Source: Patescibacteria group bacterium
GTDB taxonomy: Bacteria; Patescibacteriota; Minisyncoccia; Minisyncoccales; Staskawiczbacteraceae
Direction: 5' to 3'
Length of the DNA stretch: 49,557 nucleotides
NCBI GenBank assembly: GCA_018829965.1
Contig: JAHJTG010000005.1
Location: forward strand, 1-49,557
In this document: piece after piece, positions 3,641-23,188 of the stretch
Layout of the letters: the number at the start of each line of letters is the position of its first letter
Numbering within the stretch: the first letter of the stretch is position 1
The notes under the pieces: generated by a model
The model's database searches: none
Seen by the model: only the letters and a program-made list of their open reading frames with translations
What the model was told of the DNA's origin: nothing
Position numbers and translations under genes: made by a program

Positions 3641-6600
3641 TTATAAATTCTTTATAAACTGATCCAGTAGTCTCACTTCAATAAAATTAACTTCGGTCTT
3701 AACTGGCGGAAATTTTGTCCACCAAAATCCCATCTTCGTTGCAAAAACAGAAATGACCTTGGGATCCAAAGTTGGAGTATCCCAACCCAATTTTGTCACC
3801 AAATCCCTACCTTTAGTTTTTAAGTGATTTGCTCTTTTTTCAACTCGTTGGAGATAACCCCCCTTAAAGATGGTATCCCTTTTCATCTCTCCAAATATTT
3901 TTCGTTGCATTCTCCCAGAATCTTTATTGCTATACGGCGGGTCAATAATCTTTGATTCAATGTTGAGTAAAACATTTTTATTTTTCAAATATGCGAGCAC
4001 ATCGTAATCACCGATATCGGTAATTGTTTCATCATACTTGTGGGGGTATACACCTTTTTCTACATTGTTCGTATGCCGCAAAGCAATTTCTTTTATCTTC
4101 TCCACCAAACAATTTCTTAGATTTTCATGTCCCCTATTTAAAACTGCCTTTACCGTAGGTGCATCTAGATCAGATGGCAATTTATGCTTACTAGATATGC
4201 CCATCCAAATATGACTAGTCCGATCAATAGAGTGAGGACCCCAATAATAATGACCATCGATTTTTATGAGCGGTCTAATATCAAAACGCATTGGGCGTTT
4301 AGTATGCTCCCAGACAGGAATATCCTCTGCGGGTTCTTGTTCACCTTTAATGGTTAATATCCCTTCTGGCTTAAGAGCCAAGAAATTCAGAATAGCGTCC
4401 GTCTCTGATATATCGTAGCCTTTTATTTGTTTAGCGCACGCAGAGGCTATTTCTTTTGAAGTAGCATAATAGTAAGTACCCTCGCCTTTTTCAGTGTCAA
4501 CAGCCCATAATGCCAGCACCTGTTGCACATTCACAAAATTCTTAAGACCGAAAGCAAAATCTTTTTTAAAAGCTCTATCTAATTCATCCAAATAATCCTC
4601 AATAGGAATATTTGAATCGGCTGTATCCTCCTTCTTGCCAATGATTCCGAGGTTAATTTTTGCTTGTTCCTTGCCATATTCCTTTTCCATCGAAGCAATG
4701 TCGTTTTTTTCATCACTTGTTGAAACGATATAATCTCTGTCAATGTTCACATTTACCGGGTAAAGTTCGTAATTAATAAAATCACTTGCAACATATATAT
4801 CAATGAGCCGATCTGCAAATACAAGCAACTCTTTTAAATGCTGGTTGCTAAATTTTGTATTACCTCCGGGTTGCAACTGAACAAACTTTTCGATTAGATA
4901 TCTATAAACCTTATACCAATGGAGAAACTTTTTTTCGTTTTCTGACGATTTTCCTTCTCTTTCATAATCAACCTCATGGTCGCGGGAAGCTTTGATTTCT
5001 TCTTCAGCATGCCACGAATCATGTATTAACGCATTACTTTTTTCTAGCAATACAGGAATAGCATCGCCCAAGTTATGCCCCTGAATTTTAATGTTTAAGA
5101 ATTGGACTAGTTTATTCCTAAGATTATTTAATTTTCTCTTGCCTTCATCAGCCGAATAACTTCCGGGTTGTATATTTAACCCTAGGGCTATTTTTGCTAT
5201 CTCTTTATCCGCCAACTTATATTCTTTCTGATCTGGCAATAGAGTTCTGATTCCTTCTGGGAAAGAAACTTTTTTCTCGACCATAAATGTTTTAAATCGA
5301 GCCTTTTTGTTTTTTTCCTTTTCTAGCTCGCTTCTTATATTTGCCAAATCTGGTTCCGCCACCAAGGTGTTAAGTTGTTCAAGCACATCAACCAATAACT
5401 GGATTTGGATAGACCTATCAGCGACTATCCTAAGCGCTTCCATCATTTTTTCTAGGTTATATACAACTCTTACTCCGTAATCCATTGATTGTAGTCGCGC
5501 ACAATCCATAGCCCAAAGATTAGTATTTTGCACGAGATGTCTCACATGAGCAAGCTCATCCTCTTTAAGTGCTATCGATGATGGGCAAAAGAATATCTGA
5601 ACTTTATTGTGAGATTTAGTAAAATTGAGCTTCTCAATAATATTCGGATAGATATCGATTGCATCAAATAAACTTTGCATTATTGAATCATTAATTCCTC
5701 CTTCATCTAATTCCATCCGATGAACAGGTGCATTAATAAAAAACGAAGCTTGTCCTATTTTCTGATAATAAGCATATCCAAAAAAAGTCCGTGAATTGAG
5801 AATAAAACCGGTCTTTGTTTTCCTGTCGGCAGGTATAGTCCAACCCCTAGGATGACCAAAGAAATTCTCTTCTGGAAAAATTTCCCAGAATTTTGATAAT
5901 GAACGATAACGAAAATCTGTTCCCCAGTGTGGATCAAGCACAACGAGGTTGGGCGTGTTGGCGCCAGGAATCAATACGCTGTGAGAATCTCTAAATGATC
6001 CAAATCGATCCAAATAAGAAGTCATTGGCGACAAACTAAATGAATCTTGCATACTTTCAACATATTCAAAAAAATCAGCTATCTCGTGTAAGTCTTCTAT
6101 TTCATCTATAATTCCCAAAAACTGATCGAGCCCAATAATTTCTCCGACTAAGTCCTTTGGCTGTCCAATCATGCCGAAATCGGTAGTAATATGCGGGATG
6201 ACAGTAATAATTAACGGTTCAAGGGCCGTTCTGCCTTCTCCTTTTGTAGATTCAAATTGAACCATTTTCTCCTCACCGTGTAAACCTAATCTTGTAGGTG
6301 ATTTAGTAAAAAAATTTTGGGCTTCTTGAAGTTCGGGAATAAGAGACTCGAGCATTTTTTGTTGTGTAGTACCAGCAGTCGGTGGAGGTAAGACATGAAC
6401 CAATATAAGTTTATTTTTTGAGCGAAACGCCGTAGTGAATATCGTTTTATGAGGTTTTAGATCGTCCTGTATTGCGCTACAAATAAAAAATAATTCTTCC
6501 TCTCGCACCCGTTGCTTTATAAAGTGATACAGTTCAACTCCTATTTTAATTTCATAATGTTTTATCTCTTTTACGGTTGATGGATAATGTTCTGATAAAA

Positions 6601-7390
6601 TTTTCCCCCACTTATCAAACAATACTGCGAAATATTTTCGTGGAAGTACCGGGAAAAATCTGCCAGATTTTTTAAGAAAGAAATAAAAACAATTTTTTCC
6701 ATCATGAGCACGGCTCAAAAAGTCTTCTTCGGGAGGGACTTCAATGGGGCGAGCGGAATCTAAATCCTTTGTATATTCTTTAATTAGATCGGGGCTAAAA
6801 TTTGAAGTAGGATCAAAATTGTCTAAAAACCCCACCGCGGCTTGCCAAAATTCTTCTGAGGGCAAACTAAAGCCCCCCAACTCCACATCTCGTTTATCTT
6901 GCGCCTTAACATCGATTCCGTTGATTATTTTGTCTTGGACAGTCAAACAGAATTCAAACTCTTTTATCGGAGACCGTCCAAGTTTCTCTAAATAATATTC
7001 TTCAAAACCCCTATGGATTACCTCAAACGAATAACAAAAGTCGTAAGGATTAGATAGGTCGCCACCATAAAGCGTCCTGTAGAATTTTTTATTCAAAAAG
7101 TATTTAATTTCACCCCAATCGTTCTCTGGAAGATAATCTTCCATCATTGGGAAAGAGGGAACAATCAGAAGTAATTCTTGCACAAATTTTTTAAAGTGAT
7201 TGTATTCAGTAATTTTATTTTCTTTAGGGAGCTTGTCAAAAATGGACTCAAAAATGACATAAAGATATTGAGACTTTATGGGGCTAGCGACATTAGGAAG
7301 CCATAAATTCAATACGAAAAAAGACTTCAATAGATCCTCGATGCTATAATCCAAAAGAAAGTTTTTTAATTTTACATTATTTTCGTCCAT
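3641..7390 (-). CDS. large protein with C-terminal PD-(D/E)XK nuclease-like domain
   Basis: 1249-aa ORF; C-terminal GDYDVLAYLKNKNVLLNIESK resembles a D-x(n)-ExK core; divergent from the LexA-methylase gene. Confidence 0.7.
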   Translation of the reverse strand: MDENNVKLKNFLLDYSIEDLLKSFFVLNLWLPNVASPIKSQYLYVIFESIFDKLPKENKITEYNHFKKFVQELLLIVPSFPMMEDYLPENDWGEIKYFLNKKFYRTLYGGDLSNPYDFCYSFEVIHRGFEEYYLEKLGRSPIKEFEFCLTVQDKIINGIDVKAQDKRDVELGGFSLPSEEFWQAAVGFLDNFDPTSNFSPDLIKEYTKDLDSARPIEVPPEEDFLSRAHDGKNCFYFFLKKSGRFFPVLPRKYFAVLFDKWGKILSEHYPSTVKEIKHYEIKIGVELYHFIKQRVREEELFFICSAIQDDLKPHKTIFTTAFRSKNKLILVHVLPPPTAGTTQQKMLESLIPELQEAQNFFTKSPTRLGLHGEEKMVQFESTKGEGRTALEPLIITVIPHITTDFGMIGQPKDLVGEIIGLDQFLGIIDEIEDLHEIADFFEYVESMQDSFSLSPMTSYLDRFGSFRDSHSVLIPGANTPNLVVLDPHWGTDFRYRSLSKFWEIFPEENFFGHPRGWTIPADRKTKTGFILNSRTFFGYAYYQKIGQASFFINAPVHRMELDEGGINDSIMQSLFDAIDIYPNIIEKLNFTKSHNKVQIFFCPSSIALKEDELAHVRHLVQNTNLWAMDCARLQSMDYGVRVVYNLEKMMEALRIVADRSIQIQLLVDVLEQLNTLVAEPDLANIRSELEKEKNKKARFKTFMVEKKVSFPEGIRTLLPDQKEYKLADKEIAKIALGLNIQPGSYSADEGKRKLNNLRNKLVQFLNIKIQGHNLGDAIPVLLEKSNALIHDSWHAEEEIKASRDHEVDYEREGKSSENEKKFLHWYKVYRYLIEKFVQLQPGGNTKFSNQHLKELLVFADRLIDIYVASDFINYELYPVNVNIDRDYIVSTSDEKNDIASMEKEYGKEQAKINLGIIGKKEDTADSNIPIEDYLDELDRAFKKDFAFGLKNFVNVQQVLALWAVDTEKGEGTYYYATSKEIASACAKQIKGYDISETDAILNFLALKPEGILTIKGEQEPAEDIPVWEHTKRPMRFDIRPLIKIDGHYYWGPHSIDRTSHIWMGISSKHKLPSDLDAPTVKAVLNRGHENLRNCLVEKIKEIALRHTNNVEKGVYPHKYDETITDIGDYDVLAYLKNKNVLLNIESKIIDPPYSNKDSGRMQRKIFGEMKRDTIFKGGYLQRVEKRANHLKTKGRDLVTKLGWDTPTLDPKVISVFATKMGFWWTKFPPVKTEVNFIEVRLLDQFIKNL

Positions 7391-7487: not shown

Positions 7488-9026
7488 ATGCTTACTAAAA
7501 GAAGAAAAGAAGTCTTGGACTTCATAAAAAAATATAAGGCTAAGAAAAAATATGCTCCCTCGCTTGAGGAAATACGGAAGCATTTTCGGCTTGCCTCCGT
7601 CTCAACCGCCCATTTTCATGTAAAGAAATTACAAGAAGACGGCTATCTGCAAAAAGAATACAATCAACCACGAGGCATTGATGTAATCAAACGCGATGAA
7701 ATAATAAAAATTCCAATAATGGGAACTATTACTGCGGGCCAACCGATTGAAGCAATAGAAGTCCCAGATTCAATGGTCGCAATTTCTAAAAAAGAAATAA
7801 CTGCGAACCAAAAACATTATGCTTTACGGGTCCGAGGCGATAGCATGATCAATGATGGTATATTTGATGGCGATGTTGTTGTAATTCGCAAGCAAGAGAC
7901 CGCCGACGATGGCCAAACAGTCGTAGCAATTATTGATGATAATGAGGCTACTCTCAAAAAAATTTACACAGAAAAATCGCGCATTAGATTACAACCAGCA
8001 AATCAAGAAATGTTGCCTTTCTACCGAAAAGAAGTAGAGGTGCGAGGTGTTGTAGTCAAAATCATAAGAAATTTAGAAAATGGCACCCAGGATAATACAC
8101 TCGCTTATAAGAAAAAAGTCTTTTTGGATCGCATAAAAAGCTCTAACCCCAAAAGTCAAAATAAATATAAAAGGGTTGTCCTTTCCCCTATTAGATATGC
8201 CGGGGGGAAAACTTTAGCAGTTGGGCATGTTATTGAATTATTGCCCGATAATACAAAAAGAGTTGTTTCACCTTTCTTCGGCGGTGGTTCAATTGAAATA
8301 GCTATGAGCAAAGAGTTAGATTTAGAAGTAATCGGTTATGACATTTTTGATATTCTTTGCAATTATTGGAAATTTCAAATAGAAAAACCAGAACTTCTTT
8401 ATAATAAATTAAAGGAATTAAAACCAAACAAAAAAACCTTTGAAAAAATAAGGTTAATTTTAAACGATGTGTGGAAGAAAAAGATTAAGTTAGACCCGCT
8501 AACACTCGCAGTTTATTATGTCTATAACTTTAATCTCTCCTATGGTCCCGGATTTATGGGCTGGTCGTCTGAGATTTACTTGGATGATAAAAGATACAAA
8601 AGAATGATAGAAAACATTCGGGATTTTAACCCCAAAAATCTAAGGGTGGAATGTGCGGACTTTCAAGAAGTAATTAAAAATCATCCTAATGACTTTCTAT
8701 ATTGCGACCCTCCATATTATATCGGAAAAGACTCAAAAATGTTTAAAGGGATCTATCCGATGAGAAATATACCTGTTCATCACAACGGATTCCCACATGA
8801 AGCCCTAAGAGATCTATTAAAAAATCATAAAGGCGGTTTTGTGCTTTCTTATAATAATTGCCCAACAATAAGAGAATATTATAAAGATTTCCAGCAATTC
8901 TTCCCCAGTTGGCAATATACAATGGGCCAAGGAGAAACAAGAATTGGCTTAAATAGAAAAAATGGCAACGGTAGCCATGTAAAAGAATCTCATGAGATAA
9001 TTGTTTTTGGTCCGCCTAAAAAATAG
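7488..9026 (+). CDS. LexA-type repressor fused to D12-class DNA N6-adenine methyltransferase
   Basis: LexA wHTH, ITAGQP cleavage motif, RGDSMI serine and ATLKKI lysine; then PIRYAGGK, PFFGGGSIEIA, YCDPPYY of Dam/D12 MTases in one ORF. Confidence 0.9.
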   Translation: MLTKRRKEVLDFIKKYKAKKKYAPSLEEIRKHFRLASVSTAHFHVKKLQEDGYLQKEYNQPRGIDVIKRDEIIKIPIMGTITAGQPIEAIEVPDSMVAISKKEITANQKHYALRVRGDSMINDGIFDGDVVVIRKQETADDGQTVVAIIDDNEATLKKIYTEKSRIRLQPANQEMLPFYRKEVEVRGVVVKIIRNLENGTQDNTLAYKKKVFLDRIKSSNPKSQNKYKRVVLSPIRYAGGKTLAVGHVIELLPDNTKRVVSPFFGGGSIEIAMSKELDLEVIGYDIFDILCNYWKFQIEKPELLYNKLKELKPNKKTFEKIRLILNDVWKKKIKLDPLTLAVYYVYNFNLSYGPGFMGWSSEIYLDDKRYKRMIENIRDFNPKNLRVECADFQEVIKNHPNDFLYCDPPYYIGKDSKMFKGIYPMRNIPVHHNGFPHEALRDLLKNHKGGFVLSYNNCPTIREYYKDFQQFFPSWQYTMGQGETRIGLNRKNGNGSHVKESHEIIVFGPPKK

Positions 9027-10414: not shown

Positions 10415-10453
10415 AATACGGCTTAAAAAAACTTAAAATGTGGATAACTTCGG

Positions 10454-10567: not shown

Positions 10568-10735
10568 ATGTCGAACAAAAACGCACAACTGAATATCAAG
10601 CAAATTGAGGAAATGGTGGCCGAACGGCTGGCCGAGATTTTAGTTCAGCAATTGGAATGGCAGAGAGAACAGCAAGAAAAAATTAAAGAGAAAAATAAGT
10701 ATGGAAAAGATAAAAGAAAAATTCATAACCAGTGA
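10568..10735 (+). CDS. small hypothetical protein (55 aa)
   Basis: MSNKNAQLNIKQIEEMVAERLAEILVQQLEWQREQQEKIKEKNK...; below ORF-track size cutoff; overlaps next start. Confidence 0.5.
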   Translation: MSNKNAQLNIKQIEEMVAERLAEILVQQLEWQREQQEKIKEKNKYGKDKRKIHNQ

Positions 10736-10949
10736 TTTCTATACCGCTGTCTTTTTAATGGCCAGCGGATATAAGCTATTCGGAATCAACAAAACCGAGC
10801 CTCGGCGCTATCGCTTTATTTTTGAGGACGATAAAAATAGAGCGAAACTGCTCGAGGATTTTTTTAATAACAAAACAAAGGTTGAAGCAAGAAAGTTTAT
10901 TGGCGCCATAAAAGAGCTGAAGTCGCTGATGTATAACGACGCTATTTAA
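10701..10949 (+). CDS. DUF5659-like small protein
   Basis: 82 aa; FITSDFYTAVFLMASGYKLFGI...RYRFIFED pattern. Confidence 0.55.
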   Translation: MEKIKEKFITSDFYTAVFLMASGYKLFGINKTEPRRYRFIFEDDKNRAKLLEDFFNNKTKVEARKFIGAIKELKSLMYNDAI

Positions 10950-10963
10950 GCCGGCAAATCAAT

Positions 10964-11779
10964 ATGGAAAATGTAAAACCAACAATTGATAATAATGACT
11001 TCATCCGGCTACCAAGAAGCATAAAGGAATTTTATCTGGACAGATTTTTACTGCTCGAGGAATTTATTGTCTTGGTTTGGCTCTGGTTCGGCGCCAATCC
11101 CAAAACCGGCAGGATTAATGTCAGCTACGAAGGATTGAGTAAAGATTTTCAGGAAAGATACTCAAAAAATCAGATTAACAAGATAATGCTCGAGCTTAAG
11201 CGGAAGAAGCTGATATGGTATCCCAGACAGCAAGGCCGCAGAAGTTCTTTTAATGTGGATATCCAGAATTATCCGCTAAGTAAAGGCAAGCCCAGAGATA
11301 TTACTGAATTGTTTAATGGCAACTCTGGCAGAAGTTCCAGCAGAAGTGAAAGTGATAATCCAGCAGAAGCGCCGGCAGAAGTTAAAACATCTTGGCAGAA
11401 GTTAAAAACCGAAAAAAAGAGCTTAATAAAGCGATTTTCTACACCCTTCAATAATGACTCTGGCAGAAGTTACAATAACGATAACGAGAAAGAAAATTAT
11501 AATAAAAATCGATCGTCTTTTAATAAAATTTATGATCGGGTCGGTTTAATGGACTTTACTCCTAAGAGCTACGAGGAAGAAAGGTGCTGGCACATAGCAA
11601 GATATCTGGACGAAAAAGATATGAGGTTTATGCGCTCAGCTCTTAAGAAATACGGATTTCACGCCATAGAGAGCGCCTATAACGAAATTAAGGAAAGACC
11701 GCCGGGATCAATTCAAAATAAAGGCGCCTATTTCAATGAATTATCAAAGAGGTCTACAGATAAAAACAAATCTACTTAA
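10964..11779 (+). CDS. phage/plasmid-type replication initiator (lambda O / DnaD-like)
   Basis: N-terminal winged-helix-like segment, low-complexity linker, C-terminal DnaD-like helical segment (ALKKYGFHAIESAYNEIKERP...NKGAYF). Confidence 0.55.
   Translation: MENVKPTIDNNDFIRLPRSIKEFYLDRFLLLEEFIVLVWLWFGANPKTGRINVSYEGLSKDFQERYSKNQINKIMLELKRKKLIWYPRQQGRRSSFNVDIQNYPLSKGKPRDITELFNGNSGRSSSRSESDNPAEAPAEVKTSWQKLKTEKKSLIKRFSTPFNNDSGRSYNNDNEKENYNKNRSSFNKIYDRVGLMDFTPKSYEEERCWHIARYLDEKDMRFMRSALKKYGFHAIESAYNEIKERPPGSIQNKGAYFNELSKRSTDKNKST
11238..11471 (+). repeat. seven direct GCAGAAGT iterons (candidate origin)
   Basis: Copies start at 11238, 11328, 11340, 11363 (GCAGAAGC variant), 11375, 11395, 11463; all same orientation. 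Confidence 0.75.
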
Positions 11780-11790
11780 CGCTACTTTTT

Positions 11791-12294
11791 ATGCCTAAAT
11801 TGAAGCGCTTAACTGAATATCACAAAAGAGCGATGGAGCTGAAATATAAAGGTAATTCTTATCAAGAAATTGCCGATTTTCTCAATGAAAAGTTTAAAAA
11901 AAGTAGAAAAACAAAAAGCGGCCTTTCTTTTACAGAACAGACCATCAAGGATTGGTTTAAGGAATCCGGCACGCTCTGCGAGGATCATCGCCTCTATGAG
12001 GAAGAAATGGATGAAATTCACAAAGAGACAATAGATGTAATCCGTAAAGCCGGCATCCAGATTCGAGAACAAAACTTTCGCTTAGCCAACGAAATGCTGA
12101 TCGCCCTAATGGGAAGCGATAATGACAGCATCAAGCTCGCCGCAATTAAAGAATTGCTAAATCGAGTGGAAGGCCAACCAAGACAATTTTTGGATGTCAA
12201 AAAAGACGAGGAGGGACTTCTTGTTTATGAATCAATTATTAGAAAGATTGAACAAGAAAAAGAAGAACAAGAACAAACTGGAAAACAAGAATAA
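11791..12294 (+). CDS. HTH protein, possibly terminase-small-subunit-like
   Basis: KGNSYQEIADFLNEKF...TEQTIKDWFKESG HTH-like N-terminus; sits between Rep-like and recombinase genes. Confidence 0.4.
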   Translation: MPKLKRLTEYHKRAMELKYKGNSYQEIADFLNEKFKKSRKTKSGLSFTEQTIKDWFKESGTLCEDHRLYEEEMDEIHKETIDVIRKAGIQIREQNFRLANEMLIALMGSDNDSIKLAAIKELLNRVEGQPRQFLDVKKDEEGLLVYESIIRKIEQEKEEQEQTGKQE

Positions 12295-12362
12295 CCAGCT
12301 GTGGGTAACTCGCTTGGCTTGTGCCAAGGGTAAGCACATAATGGGGGTTGCCAAAAAACAAT

Positions 12363-14063
12363 ATGAAAAATGCATTAATTTACTGCCGAGTATCAACCGA
12401 AGAACAAGTTAAAGAAGGCTACTCTTTAGACGCGCAGGAAAAATTCTGCGCTAAATTTGCTGAAAACGATGACTACCGAATCGTGGAAGTATTTAGAGAT
12501 GAAGGCAAAAGCGCCACCACCCTTGATAGACCAGCCCTTCAGGATCTTTTAGCCAAATGCCAGCAGGATGACTCTGTTGACGCTGTATTCGTTCAGGAAA
12601 CAGACCGGCTGGCCAGAAACACCAAAGATCATCTGACCATCAGGGCTGTGCTCCAAAAAGCAGGAGTTAAGCTCGTTTCTGTTGCCCAGCCAATGCTTGA
12701 TGACAGCCCGGAAGGCAATATGATTGATACGATTTTGGCCAGTGTTAATCAATTTCAATCTGACCTTAACAGCCGAAAGACCAAAAAAGGCCTGCAGGAA
12801 AGATTTGACCAGGGCTGGTGGCCGGGCTGGGTGCCGCTCGGTTATCTTAATGTGGGTGTGGGCGGCAACGCTGACGGCCGCAAAGCCAAAAAGATTATTA
12901 AAAAAGACCCGAAAAGATTTGATCTGATTAGAAAAATGTTTGATATGGTTTTGAGCGGAAACTACTCTGTCCCTCAAACTCACACTATCGCAGTTACCGA
13001 GTAGGGTTTTAGAATGCCCAACGGAACTAAAATGTCCCGAAGCACTTTTTACTCTGTTATTGGCAATCCTTTTTATTATGGCTATTACGAATATCCAAAA
13101 AAGTCTGGCATCTGGCATAAAGGAAAACACCCGGCCATGATCACCAAAGACGAATACGATCAAATTCAAAATATGATCAGGCCAGACAATATCAAGCCAA
13201 TGAAGCACGTATTCGCTTTTACGGGTTTAATTAAATGCGGTGAGTGCGAAGCCACGATCACAGCCGAACATAAAACCAAAAGACAAATAAATGGCAATGT
13301 CCATTATTACACTTACTACCACTGCACTAAACGAATAAACAAAAACTGTTCTCAAAGAGTAATTCAGGTGCAAGATTTAGAAAAAGAGATCGCTGAGATA
13401 TTGGGAGGTTTGACCATACCGCCAGAATTCAATGAATGGGCAATGAGCTGGCTTAAAGACGAAAACCACAAAGAAGCTGATGATAGAAACGATATTTTAG
13501 ATACTCAACAAAAATCATACAATGAATGCATTAAGAAAATTGACAATCTGATTGATATGCGAGCTGGCGGTGAGATTAGCGAACAGCAGTTCAAAGACAA
13601 GAAAGCCAAAATTGTTAAAGAAAAAATGCACTTGCAGGAATTATTAAAAGATACAGACAAACGAGTAGACAATTGGCTGGAACGAGCAGAGGAAGCGTTG
13701 ATATTTGCCCAAAACGCCAAACTTGCCTTTGAAAATGGAACATTACAGAGAAAAAGAGAGATACTAAACACCTTAGGTTCGAACCTCCTGTTAAAAGACA
13801 GAAAACTGCGTATTAACTTGGAAAATTGCCTTTTGCCCATGCAAAAAGTCGATACTGGGTCCGGCAACAAAAAAAGCGGGTTCGAACCGCTTGATTTGTG
13901 CGTAGATAAAAGGAAAAACACCGCTTCAGGCGGTGTTCGTCCAGATTGGCTCCCCTTCAAGAACGCACTTACTCGGTTTGATTGGAGAGCATTTAGGGTT
14001 GAGCTGGACGCCTTTGTCTCAACTTATAATATCTCTTTGGGCGGAAATTGGGGCGGAGTATAA
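12363..14063 (+). pseudogene. large serine recombinase interrupted by an in-frame TAG (13002-13004)
   Basis: ALIYCRVSTEEQVKEGYSLDAQ resolvase start and DRLARN; after TAG the same frame continues GFRMPNGTKMSRSTFYSVIGNPFYYG, then Zn ribbon (CGECEATI...YYHC); 3' end uncertain. Confidence 0.8.
13911..13937 (-). terminator. Rho-independent terminator for the 14024-14770 gene
   Basis: On minus strand: ACACCGC-CTGA-AGCGGTGT-TTTTCC. Confidence 0.5.
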
Positions 14064-21646: not shown

Positions 21647-23155
21647 ATGAAAGCAGTAATACTCGCAAGAGTTTCAACAACAAGGCAAGAAGAGGAGGGG
21701 CACTCGCTCCCCGCTCAAATAAGGAGGTTGCAGGAATACGCAAAGAAAAAAGGCTTTGAAATAGCCGAGACTTTTTCTTTTTCTGAAAGTGCGGGAGGCA
21801 AAATTAGAAAGAAATTTGAAGAAGTTATGACCTATATCAAAACTCATAAAGATGTTAAAGTTTTGCTTTGCGAGAATGTTGACCGAGCGACAAGGAACTT
21901 TAAGGACGCTGTTGATTTAGACGAAATGAGAAAAAACGAGGGTTTAGAAATTCATTTCGTCCAAGACGGATTTTTCATAAATAAAAATGCTACTGGCAAC
22001 CAAATGTTTATGTGGGAGGCAAAGGTATTTATTGCCAAGCAATACTTAAACCGATTATCTGATGATGTCAAAAGAAGCAACGAGCAGAAGCTACAAAATG
22101 GCGAATGGATAAACAAGCCCCCGATAGGATACATTGGCACGATAGACCCTAAGGGCAACAAAGGAATGATACCAGACCCGTTAAAAAGCCACCTTGTCGT
22201 TAAAATCTTTGAAATCTATGCTACTGGGAGCTCCTCAATTCTAAAGATTAAAGAAACAATGGACGCTCTGGGTTTAAGAGGCAATACAAGGGACAATAAG
22301 CCCCTCTGTAAGAGCCAAATACACTATATCCTTAATAATCCCTATTACTACGGCTTAATGCGTGTTAACGGGCAATTATACGAACATAAATATGAACCCT
22401 TAATAACCAAACAACTTTTTGATAGAGTGCAGGAAGTATTTAGTGGTTATGATAAAAAACCTTTCAGATATGGTTGTAAGCCTTTTGTATTTAGGGCTAT
22501 GGTAAGATGTTCAGAGTGCGGGTGCTTGATTGGCGGAGAGCTTAAAAAAGGACACTATGTTTATTATTCTTGCAATAATTATAAGAAAGTCCACAAGCAA
22601 AGGGTTTATGTTAAAGAGATTGATATGCTTGAACCAGTTCGCAGGGTTTTAGAAAAGATAAAATTAACAGACCAACAAAAAAACGAACTGATAGAAGATT
22701 TTAAGAAATCAGACAAAAGTAAGAATAAGTTTGTAAGTGCCAAGCTCCCAGAGCTAACGGCAGAGTTTGATTTATACGAAACGAGAAAAAGCGAAACTTG
22801 GAATAAATATGTGGATAAGGAAATAAGTAAGGAGATGTATGACAAAAAATACAAAGAATATGACGACAAGCAGAACGCTATAAAAACCCAAATGGGAAAA
22901 TTCCAAGTAGCTGATGTAGAATTTTACACAACAATAAATATGATTGTGGCTCTCTCTCAAAGAGCCGAAGAAATCTTTGAAAGTTCTGAACCTCACGAGA
23001 AAAGGGCTTTTGCCAATTTCTTACTTCAGAACTGCCAATTAGAAGGCGAAAAGCTGAAATTTGAACTTAAAAGCCCCTTTGACGGGGCTTTATCTGCACA
23101 CGACTGTTCTAACTTGCTCCGCGGCCAGGACTCGAACCTGGAACCTTCTCGTTAA
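21647..23155 (+). CDS. serine recombinase (large resolvase family)
   Basis: AVILARVSTTRQEEEGHSLPAQIRRL; NVDRATRN; Zn ribbon CSECGCLIGG...YYSC; coiled-coil tail; C-term overlaps tRNA-Asn. Confidence 0.92.
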   Translation: MKAVILARVSTTRQEEEGHSLPAQIRRLQEYAKKKGFEIAETFSFSESAGGKIRKKFEEVMTYIKTHKDVKVLLCENVDRATRNFKDAVDLDEMRKNEGLEIHFVQDGFFINKNATGNQMFMWEAKVFIAKQYLNRLSDDVKRSNEQKLQNGEWINKPPIGYIGTIDPKGNKGMIPDPLKSHLVVKIFEIYATGSSSILKIKETMDALGLRGNTRDNKPLCKSQIHYILNNPYYYGLMRVNGQLYEHKYEPLITKQLFDRVQEVFSGYDKKPFRYGCKPFVFRAMVRCSECGCLIGGELKKGHYVYYSCNNYKKVHKQRVYVKEIDMLEPVRRVLEKIKLTDQQKNELIEDFKKSDKSKNKFVSAKLPELTAEFDLYETRKSETWNKYVDKEISKEMYDKKYKEYDDKQNAIKTQMGKFQVADVEFYTTINMIVALSQRAEEIFESSEPHEKRAFANFLLQNCQLEGEKLKFELKSPFDGALSAHDCSNLLRGQDSNLEPSR

Positions 23156-23188
23156 CAGCGAGTTGCACTACCATTGTGCTACCGCGGA
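23117..23188 (-). tRNA. tRNA-Asn (GUU)
   Basis: TCCGCGG/CCGCGGA acceptor stem, ACTCG-CTGTTAA-CGAGA anticodon arm, CCAGG-TTCGAGT-CCTGG T-arm. Confidence 0.97.

Follow-up and report, generated by a model that had tools for sequence, protein, structure and literature searches.

Short repeats in a fixed register inside a Rep-like gene of Patescibacteria suggest an undescribed initiator family with an in-gene origin

Introduction

Why does a protein-coding gene of Patescibacteria carry seven copies of one short DNA word, and do these copies serve the protein or the DNA? The gene lies in a 49,557-nucleotide stretch (contig JAHJTG010000005.1), the whole of which was analyzed and is referred to here as the window. 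To our knowledge, very little is known of the plasmids and other replicons that Patescibacteria carry, and a literature search found no paper naming both iterons and Patescibacteria. The best reading of the evidence described below is that Rep represents an undescribed initiator family with an iteron origin inside its own gene. New here are this initiator family and how widely it occurs in Patescibacteria, together with a register of sites that is fixed across the phylum and a change of the repeat word that is concerted with the recognition helix.

Results

Repeats inside the rep gene. Six exact copies of the word GCAGAAGT lie on the + strand between 11238 and 11470, accompanied by a near copy with one mismatch (Table 1). 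The original prediction, made from the sequence of the window, had counted seven same-orientation copies in the linker-coding part of the gene. Its orientation and number of sites hold, while the copy at 11363 falls short of exactness; six of the seven encode the predicted disordered linker, and iteron 1 lies in the wing of the winged helix. In order, the copies stand in codon frames 1, 1, 1, 0, 0, 2, and 1 of the gene, and all three frames are used as had been claimed.

The exact word occurs 8 times in the whole window against 1.0 expected, a count reached in 0 of 100 shuffles, and shuffles of the gene that preserved both protein and codons never reached six exact copies (0 of 5,000; maximum, 4). 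No other 8-mer in the whole 49.6-kb window has six copies per 240 nt. The iteron words measure 8 to 10 bp and show no inverted-repeat symmetry when compared with the symmetric iterons of 18 to 19 bp of the lambda type; their spacing is irregular, and no helical phase is common to all.

A possible eighth half-site (AAGAAGT/AAGAGGT) was seen at rep nucleotide 241 (about 11204 in the window), 35 nt upstream of iteron 1. It is kept in many relatives, yet it also codes for a conserved Lys-Lys. A DnaA box at 10439-10447 was considered as evidence and rejected as unconvincing, the window having four such boxes against 1.6 expected.

Table 1. Features of the window around the Rep-like gene; register is the position of the CAGAAGT core counted in nucleotides from the start codon.
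Feature	Position	Strand	Remarks
DUF5659 gene	10701..10949	+	82 aa; PF18903, E 1e-13; usual upstream neighbor of rep
Rep-like gene, putative initiator	10964..11779	+	271 aa; homologues; AlphaFold2 model
Iteron 1, GCAGAAGT	11238..11245	+	Register 276; codes R-S in wing of winged helix
Iteron 2, GCAGAAGT	11328..11335	+	Register 366; codes SGRS
Iteron 3, GCAGAAGT	11340..11347	+	Register 378
Iteron 4, GCAGAAGC	11363..11370	+	Register 401; one mismatch to GCAGAAGT; codes AEA
Iteron 5, GCAGAAGT	11375..11382	+	Register 413; codes AEV
Iteron 6, GCAGAAGT	11395..11402	+	Register 433; codes WQK
Iteron 7, GCAGAAGT	11463..11470	+	Register 501; codes SGRS; anchors the register and is present in almost every relative
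AT-rich tract, candidate unwinding element	11486..11535	+	82% AT; downstream of last iteron
Helix-turn-helix gene directly after rep	11791..12294	+	30% identity, E 2e-15, to L040:5342-5776
Large serine recombinase, N-terminal part	12348..13004	+	Frame broken at end; 50% identity to intact L040 recombinase
Large serine recombinase, C-terminal part	13014..14063	+	Separate ORF
tRNA-Asn	23116..23188	-	3' end facing island; likely integration site of island

A fixed nucleotide register in relatives. Protein and profile searches of the order and class gave full-length relatives from other families of the same phylum, and a phylum sample added relatives in 10 of 384 genomes after the removal of one false match; the match in G313 (L031) lies in a ribosomal-protein operon and was rejected. 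A related-locus search with the single Rep protein of the window had no match. Relatives with 24 to 56% protein identity across Patescibacteria have the same register of sites, with intervals of 35, 12, 20, and 68 nt, and since these are not all multiples of three, each position has its own fixed frame. Once a single constant offset is applied, relatives that were retrieved purely by protein search carry sites at 276, 355 or 366, 401, 413, 433, and 501.

All seven register sites are present in L007, L008, and L025. Others keep subsets: 366, 401, 413, 433, and 501 in L009; 355, 401, 413, 433, and 501 in L026; 276, 366, 401, 433, and 501 in L028; 276, 366, 433, and 501 in L010; 413, 433, and 501 in L027; and 276, 401, and 501 in L003. 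The iteron at 378 is absent from the relatives tabulated, and a site at 355 takes its place in most close relatives. L004 and L029 depart partly from the register, and L002, with C-terminal homology to Rep only, is without such iterons. Alignment of orthologues, a check proposed with the original prediction, showed that both the peptide of the linker and the word of the iterons vary while the nucleotide spacing of the sites is kept.

The register was also recovered by a scan that used DNA only. The pattern CAGARST-N13-CAGARST-N61-CAGARST, run against 264 Gb of bacterial and archaeal genomes, had 23 matches, 22 of which encode the Rep family of the window in the expected frame. The titles of the matched records point to Patescibacteria wherever they name a lineage. 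Random DNA of even composition should, by simple arithmetic, give about eight chance matches; one match without Rep was seen (L036), which we take as chance. The same spacing pattern had no match in viral contigs. Broken-frame rep genes were observed in L028/L033 and in L030, with their iterons still in register.

Word change between clades and synonymous sites. The word itself differs by clade: GCAGAAGT is that of the clade of the window, TCAGAGGT is found in L003, L006, L009, and L055, TCCGAGGT in L010, TCCGAAGT in L011, and TCCGTAGG in L029. Sites of different frames within one element agree with each other more than sites shuffled among elements do (0.626 versus 0.570; standard deviation, 0.009; 0 of 5,000 shuffles). 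In five members retrieved by protein search, codons that specify the same amino acid had identical third bases in 152 of 152 pairs inside iterons, compared with 65% elsewhere (P = 1e-5). Because 15 of the 22 Rep-coding pattern matches were additions to the family that owed their selection to a DNA pattern, circularity is possible in such a test, and it was therefore repeated with just the protein-found members and at sites that the pattern does not cover; in 16 close members, third-base identity at sites outside the DNA search was 98.6%, versus 69.3% elsewhere (P = 1e-5).

These data bear on the possibility that selection acts on linker motifs (SGRS, AEV, and QKL) and that the DNA repeat is a by-product. 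Linker residues R168 and E139 are invariant or nearly so, as such selection would have it, but the synonymous-site and cross-frame tests contradict it, and we give it next to no credence. One DNA word is read in three frames as different peptides, its synonymous third bases are frozen, and between clades it changes jointly at sites of different frames, a concerted change that peptide selection cannot explain. Judged by these comparisons, selection on the iterons acts at the DNA level, and the register, the third bases, and the cross-frame covariation all agree with the original prediction that protein repetition is not the cause.

The AT-rich tract. Behind the repeats lies an AT-rich tract at the place and of the character foreseen in the original prediction (Table 1). 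Segments of 50 nt that are equally AT-rich make up only 2.6% of the whole window and 1% of the rep gene. In a comparison covering 37 genes, a few of which are duplicate retrievals, AT content averaged 72% in the block from 25 to 50 nt past the first base of the last iteron, versus a gene mean of 58%. Synonymous conservation is raised past the last iteron, at 0.84 to 1.0 in most segments over codons 163 to 187, which form the AT-rich tract, and drops below that level where rep encodes the C-terminal part, with values of about 0.63.

The Rep-like protein. Structure prediction with AlphaFold2, run on 19 sequences, gave the Rep of the window a winged-helix N-terminal domain (about residues 10 to 118), a disordered linker (121 to 191), and a helical C-terminal domain (about 200 to 270), with a mean pLDDT of 70 and values below 50 in the linker. 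By sequence, Rep matched no characterized initiator and had no hit above threshold in Pfam, PHROGs, NCBIfam, or PDB sequences. RepA_N (PF06970) had no match in the 19 members (hmmscan against Pfam, E ≤ 0.1), and HTH_36 (PF13730) had only subthreshold matches, in 3 of the 19 (best E, 0.025). A fold search with the whole model returned generic winged-helix matches only, with E values above 0.01 and MarR-type regulators among them; the C-terminal helical domain of the model was without a significant fold match in the PDB.

Recognition-helix residues 69 and 76 vary with the repeat word. In 13 of 13 CAG-word elements compared they are N and L/I, while 3 of 3 CCG-word elements have D and R, a correlation of which kinship of the elements could explain part. 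The contrast of N69/L76-CAG with D69/R76-CCG offers a natural experiment on how the specificity of a putative initiator may shift jointly with that of a candidate origin written into the same gene. Between the last two iterons, at linker residues of about 158 to 163, we also observed the F-S-x-P-F-like peptide RFSTPF in several clades; it could be a protein-binding motif.

Discussion

Comparison with known systems. Phage lambda has four O-binding iterons inside gene O with an AT-rich tract behind them (PMC7466680, PMC5043065). We located these iterons at nt 349, 369, 393, and 416 of the gene, in frames 0, 2, 2, and 1, with 78% AT behind. The parallel that the original prediction drew with the lambda origin stands in its layout, for in both cases iterons in the middle of an initiator gene occupy three frames and are followed by an AT-rich tract. 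The two differ in that lambda has four 18-bp near-palindromes within 85 bp, whereas the window has seven nonpalindromic 8-bp words over 233 bp. Moreover, the Rep of the window is without lambda O homology (no Pfam or PHROG match to phage replication proteins), the gene next to it encodes a helix-turn-helix (HTH) protein, and no lambda P-type loader gene was identified.

RepA_N plasmid initiators have a DnaD-like C-terminal domain that binds primase. In the Rep of pSK41, an N-terminal winged helix (residues 1 to 120) binds boxes centrally inside rep, and residues 121 to 199 are a linker encoded by the origin, followed by the C-terminal domain (PMC5703833). The initiator of the window is likewise built of three parts, as in pSK41/pPR9 (RepA_N/HTH_36), at about residues 1 to 120, 121 to 191, and 192 to 271, and in its family, as in RepA_N initiators, the repeats, to which Rep would bind, lie centrally in rep in the linker-coding part. 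Unlike pSK41/pPR9, the family gives no RepA_N match and HTH_36 matches only below threshold, belongs to a different host phylum, resides on elements that carry a serine recombinase and are integrated at tRNA genes, and in the window has seven short sites of 8 to 10 bp in a fixed irregular register. The anatomy is closer to that of RepA_N/HTH_36 plasmid initiators such as pSK41 than to that of lambda O. The sequence tests for lambda O and RepA_N both failed. Rep would work like both, and membership in either is not supported.

Proposed function and alternatives. We postulate, with a probability of roughly 0.83, that rep encodes the initiator of an integrative Patescibacteria element and that this initiator binds the seven repeats, which form an origin inside the gene; that the array is a working origin is something we infer. 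Points against this reading are the irregular iteron spacing, with some sites out of helical phase, the negative searches for an episomal form and for a match to a characterized initiator, and the broken recombinase gene in the window. The winged-helix N-terminal domain would bind the iterons, the Rep-bound array would melt the AT-rich tract, the C-terminal domain would recruit the host helicase or primase, and the excised circle would replicate by the theta mechanism. The linker probably tolerates variation at the protein level because its DNA would be the origin. Replicating vectors for Patescibacteria could be built from this phylum-wide initiator family and its candidate origin, which is resolved to the base.

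An alternative hypothesis is that the sites are an operator only, through which Rep or the adjacent HTH protein represses transcription or copy number, with the origin elsewhere. A repressor would likewise be a winged-helix protein encoded beside its own sites, the fold-search matches included MarR-type regulators, and operator and origin roles can coexist. However, seven sites over 230 bp deep in a coding region, the phylum-wide register, the AT-rich tract with its raised synonymous conservation, the separate conserved helical C-terminal domain, and the neighboring integrative module would all be unusual for an operator but typical of an origin, and we regard the operator reading as improbable. 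Less probable again, with only a slim chance of being right, is that these are packaging or recombination sites for the terminase-small-subunit-like HTH protein or the serine recombinase and have no part in replication. The HTH and recombinase genes do adjoin rep in many elements, but L027, L032, and L015, which have no HTH gene between rep and the recombinase, keep the sites in register; in addition, the word tracks the recognition helix of Rep, and integration maps to tRNA, not to rep.

That the elements are phage satellites, integrated at tRNA genes, excised by a serine recombinase, replicated from an in-gene origin, and packaged by a helper phage through a TerS-like protein, seems unlikely to us. 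A TerS-like HTH gene beside rep on an integrated island recalls PICIs; unlike these, the element of the window has a large serine recombinase, no primase homologue was seen in it, and no helper phage is known. No match to structural genes was found by Pfam among the main open reading frames of the island.

The mobile element. In favor of an integrative element as the setting of this candidate origin, many relatives have an HTH gene and a large serine recombinase downstream of rep and a DUF5659 gene upstream, the DUF5659-rep order being common to L003, L008, L009, L010, and L011. L040:5342-5776, the relative of the HTH gene of the window, matches phrog_2538 at 5e-10 and is terminase-small-subunit-like. 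In L027, L032, and L015 the recombinase directly follows rep. As a separate observation, L027 and L032 are two Rep elements 16.7 kb apart on one contig of G904, each with its own serine recombinase.

At 15 loci, a tRNA gene whose 3' end points to rep lies a few kilobases past rep, and five tRNA-His elements have identical sequence right behind the tRNA CCA. The L015 element spans 5.8 kb between 14-bp att repeats, at 7741-7754 and 13564-13577, that match the 3' end of tRNA-Asp (score of 14 versus 6 to 8 in shuffles). For the element of the window itself, no att repeat was found, and in an empty-site comparison its left neighbor gene (3641-7390) had no homologue in 11 relatives. Close to where the first recombinase gene ends, GCGGGTTCGAACCGC at 13873-13895 resembles a tRNA T-arm and is a possible att remnant. 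A search for an episomal form had no match in plasmid or phage records or viral contigs, and three short contigs showed no terminal overlap.

GC skew in the window is reversed from about 7 kb to 23.1 kb. The tRNA-Asn marks the end of the island, and a second large serine recombinase (21647-23155) runs into it, the open reading frame ending inside the tRNA. The arrangement suggests that the island consists of two stacked elements. With the recombinase adjacent to rep broken, the rep-bearing copy may no longer move and is perhaps immobile. The stretch from 14.1 to 23.1 kb looks like element accretion at one tRNA; it holds a HARE-HTH/PD-(D/E)XK protein, a type II restriction enzyme and methyltransferase, a tyrosine integrase, and the second large serine recombinase. 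To the left of the island, at 7488-9026, a LexA-type repressor (LexA DNA-binding domain and S24 peptidase) is fused to a D12 adenine methyltransferase in one open reading frame.
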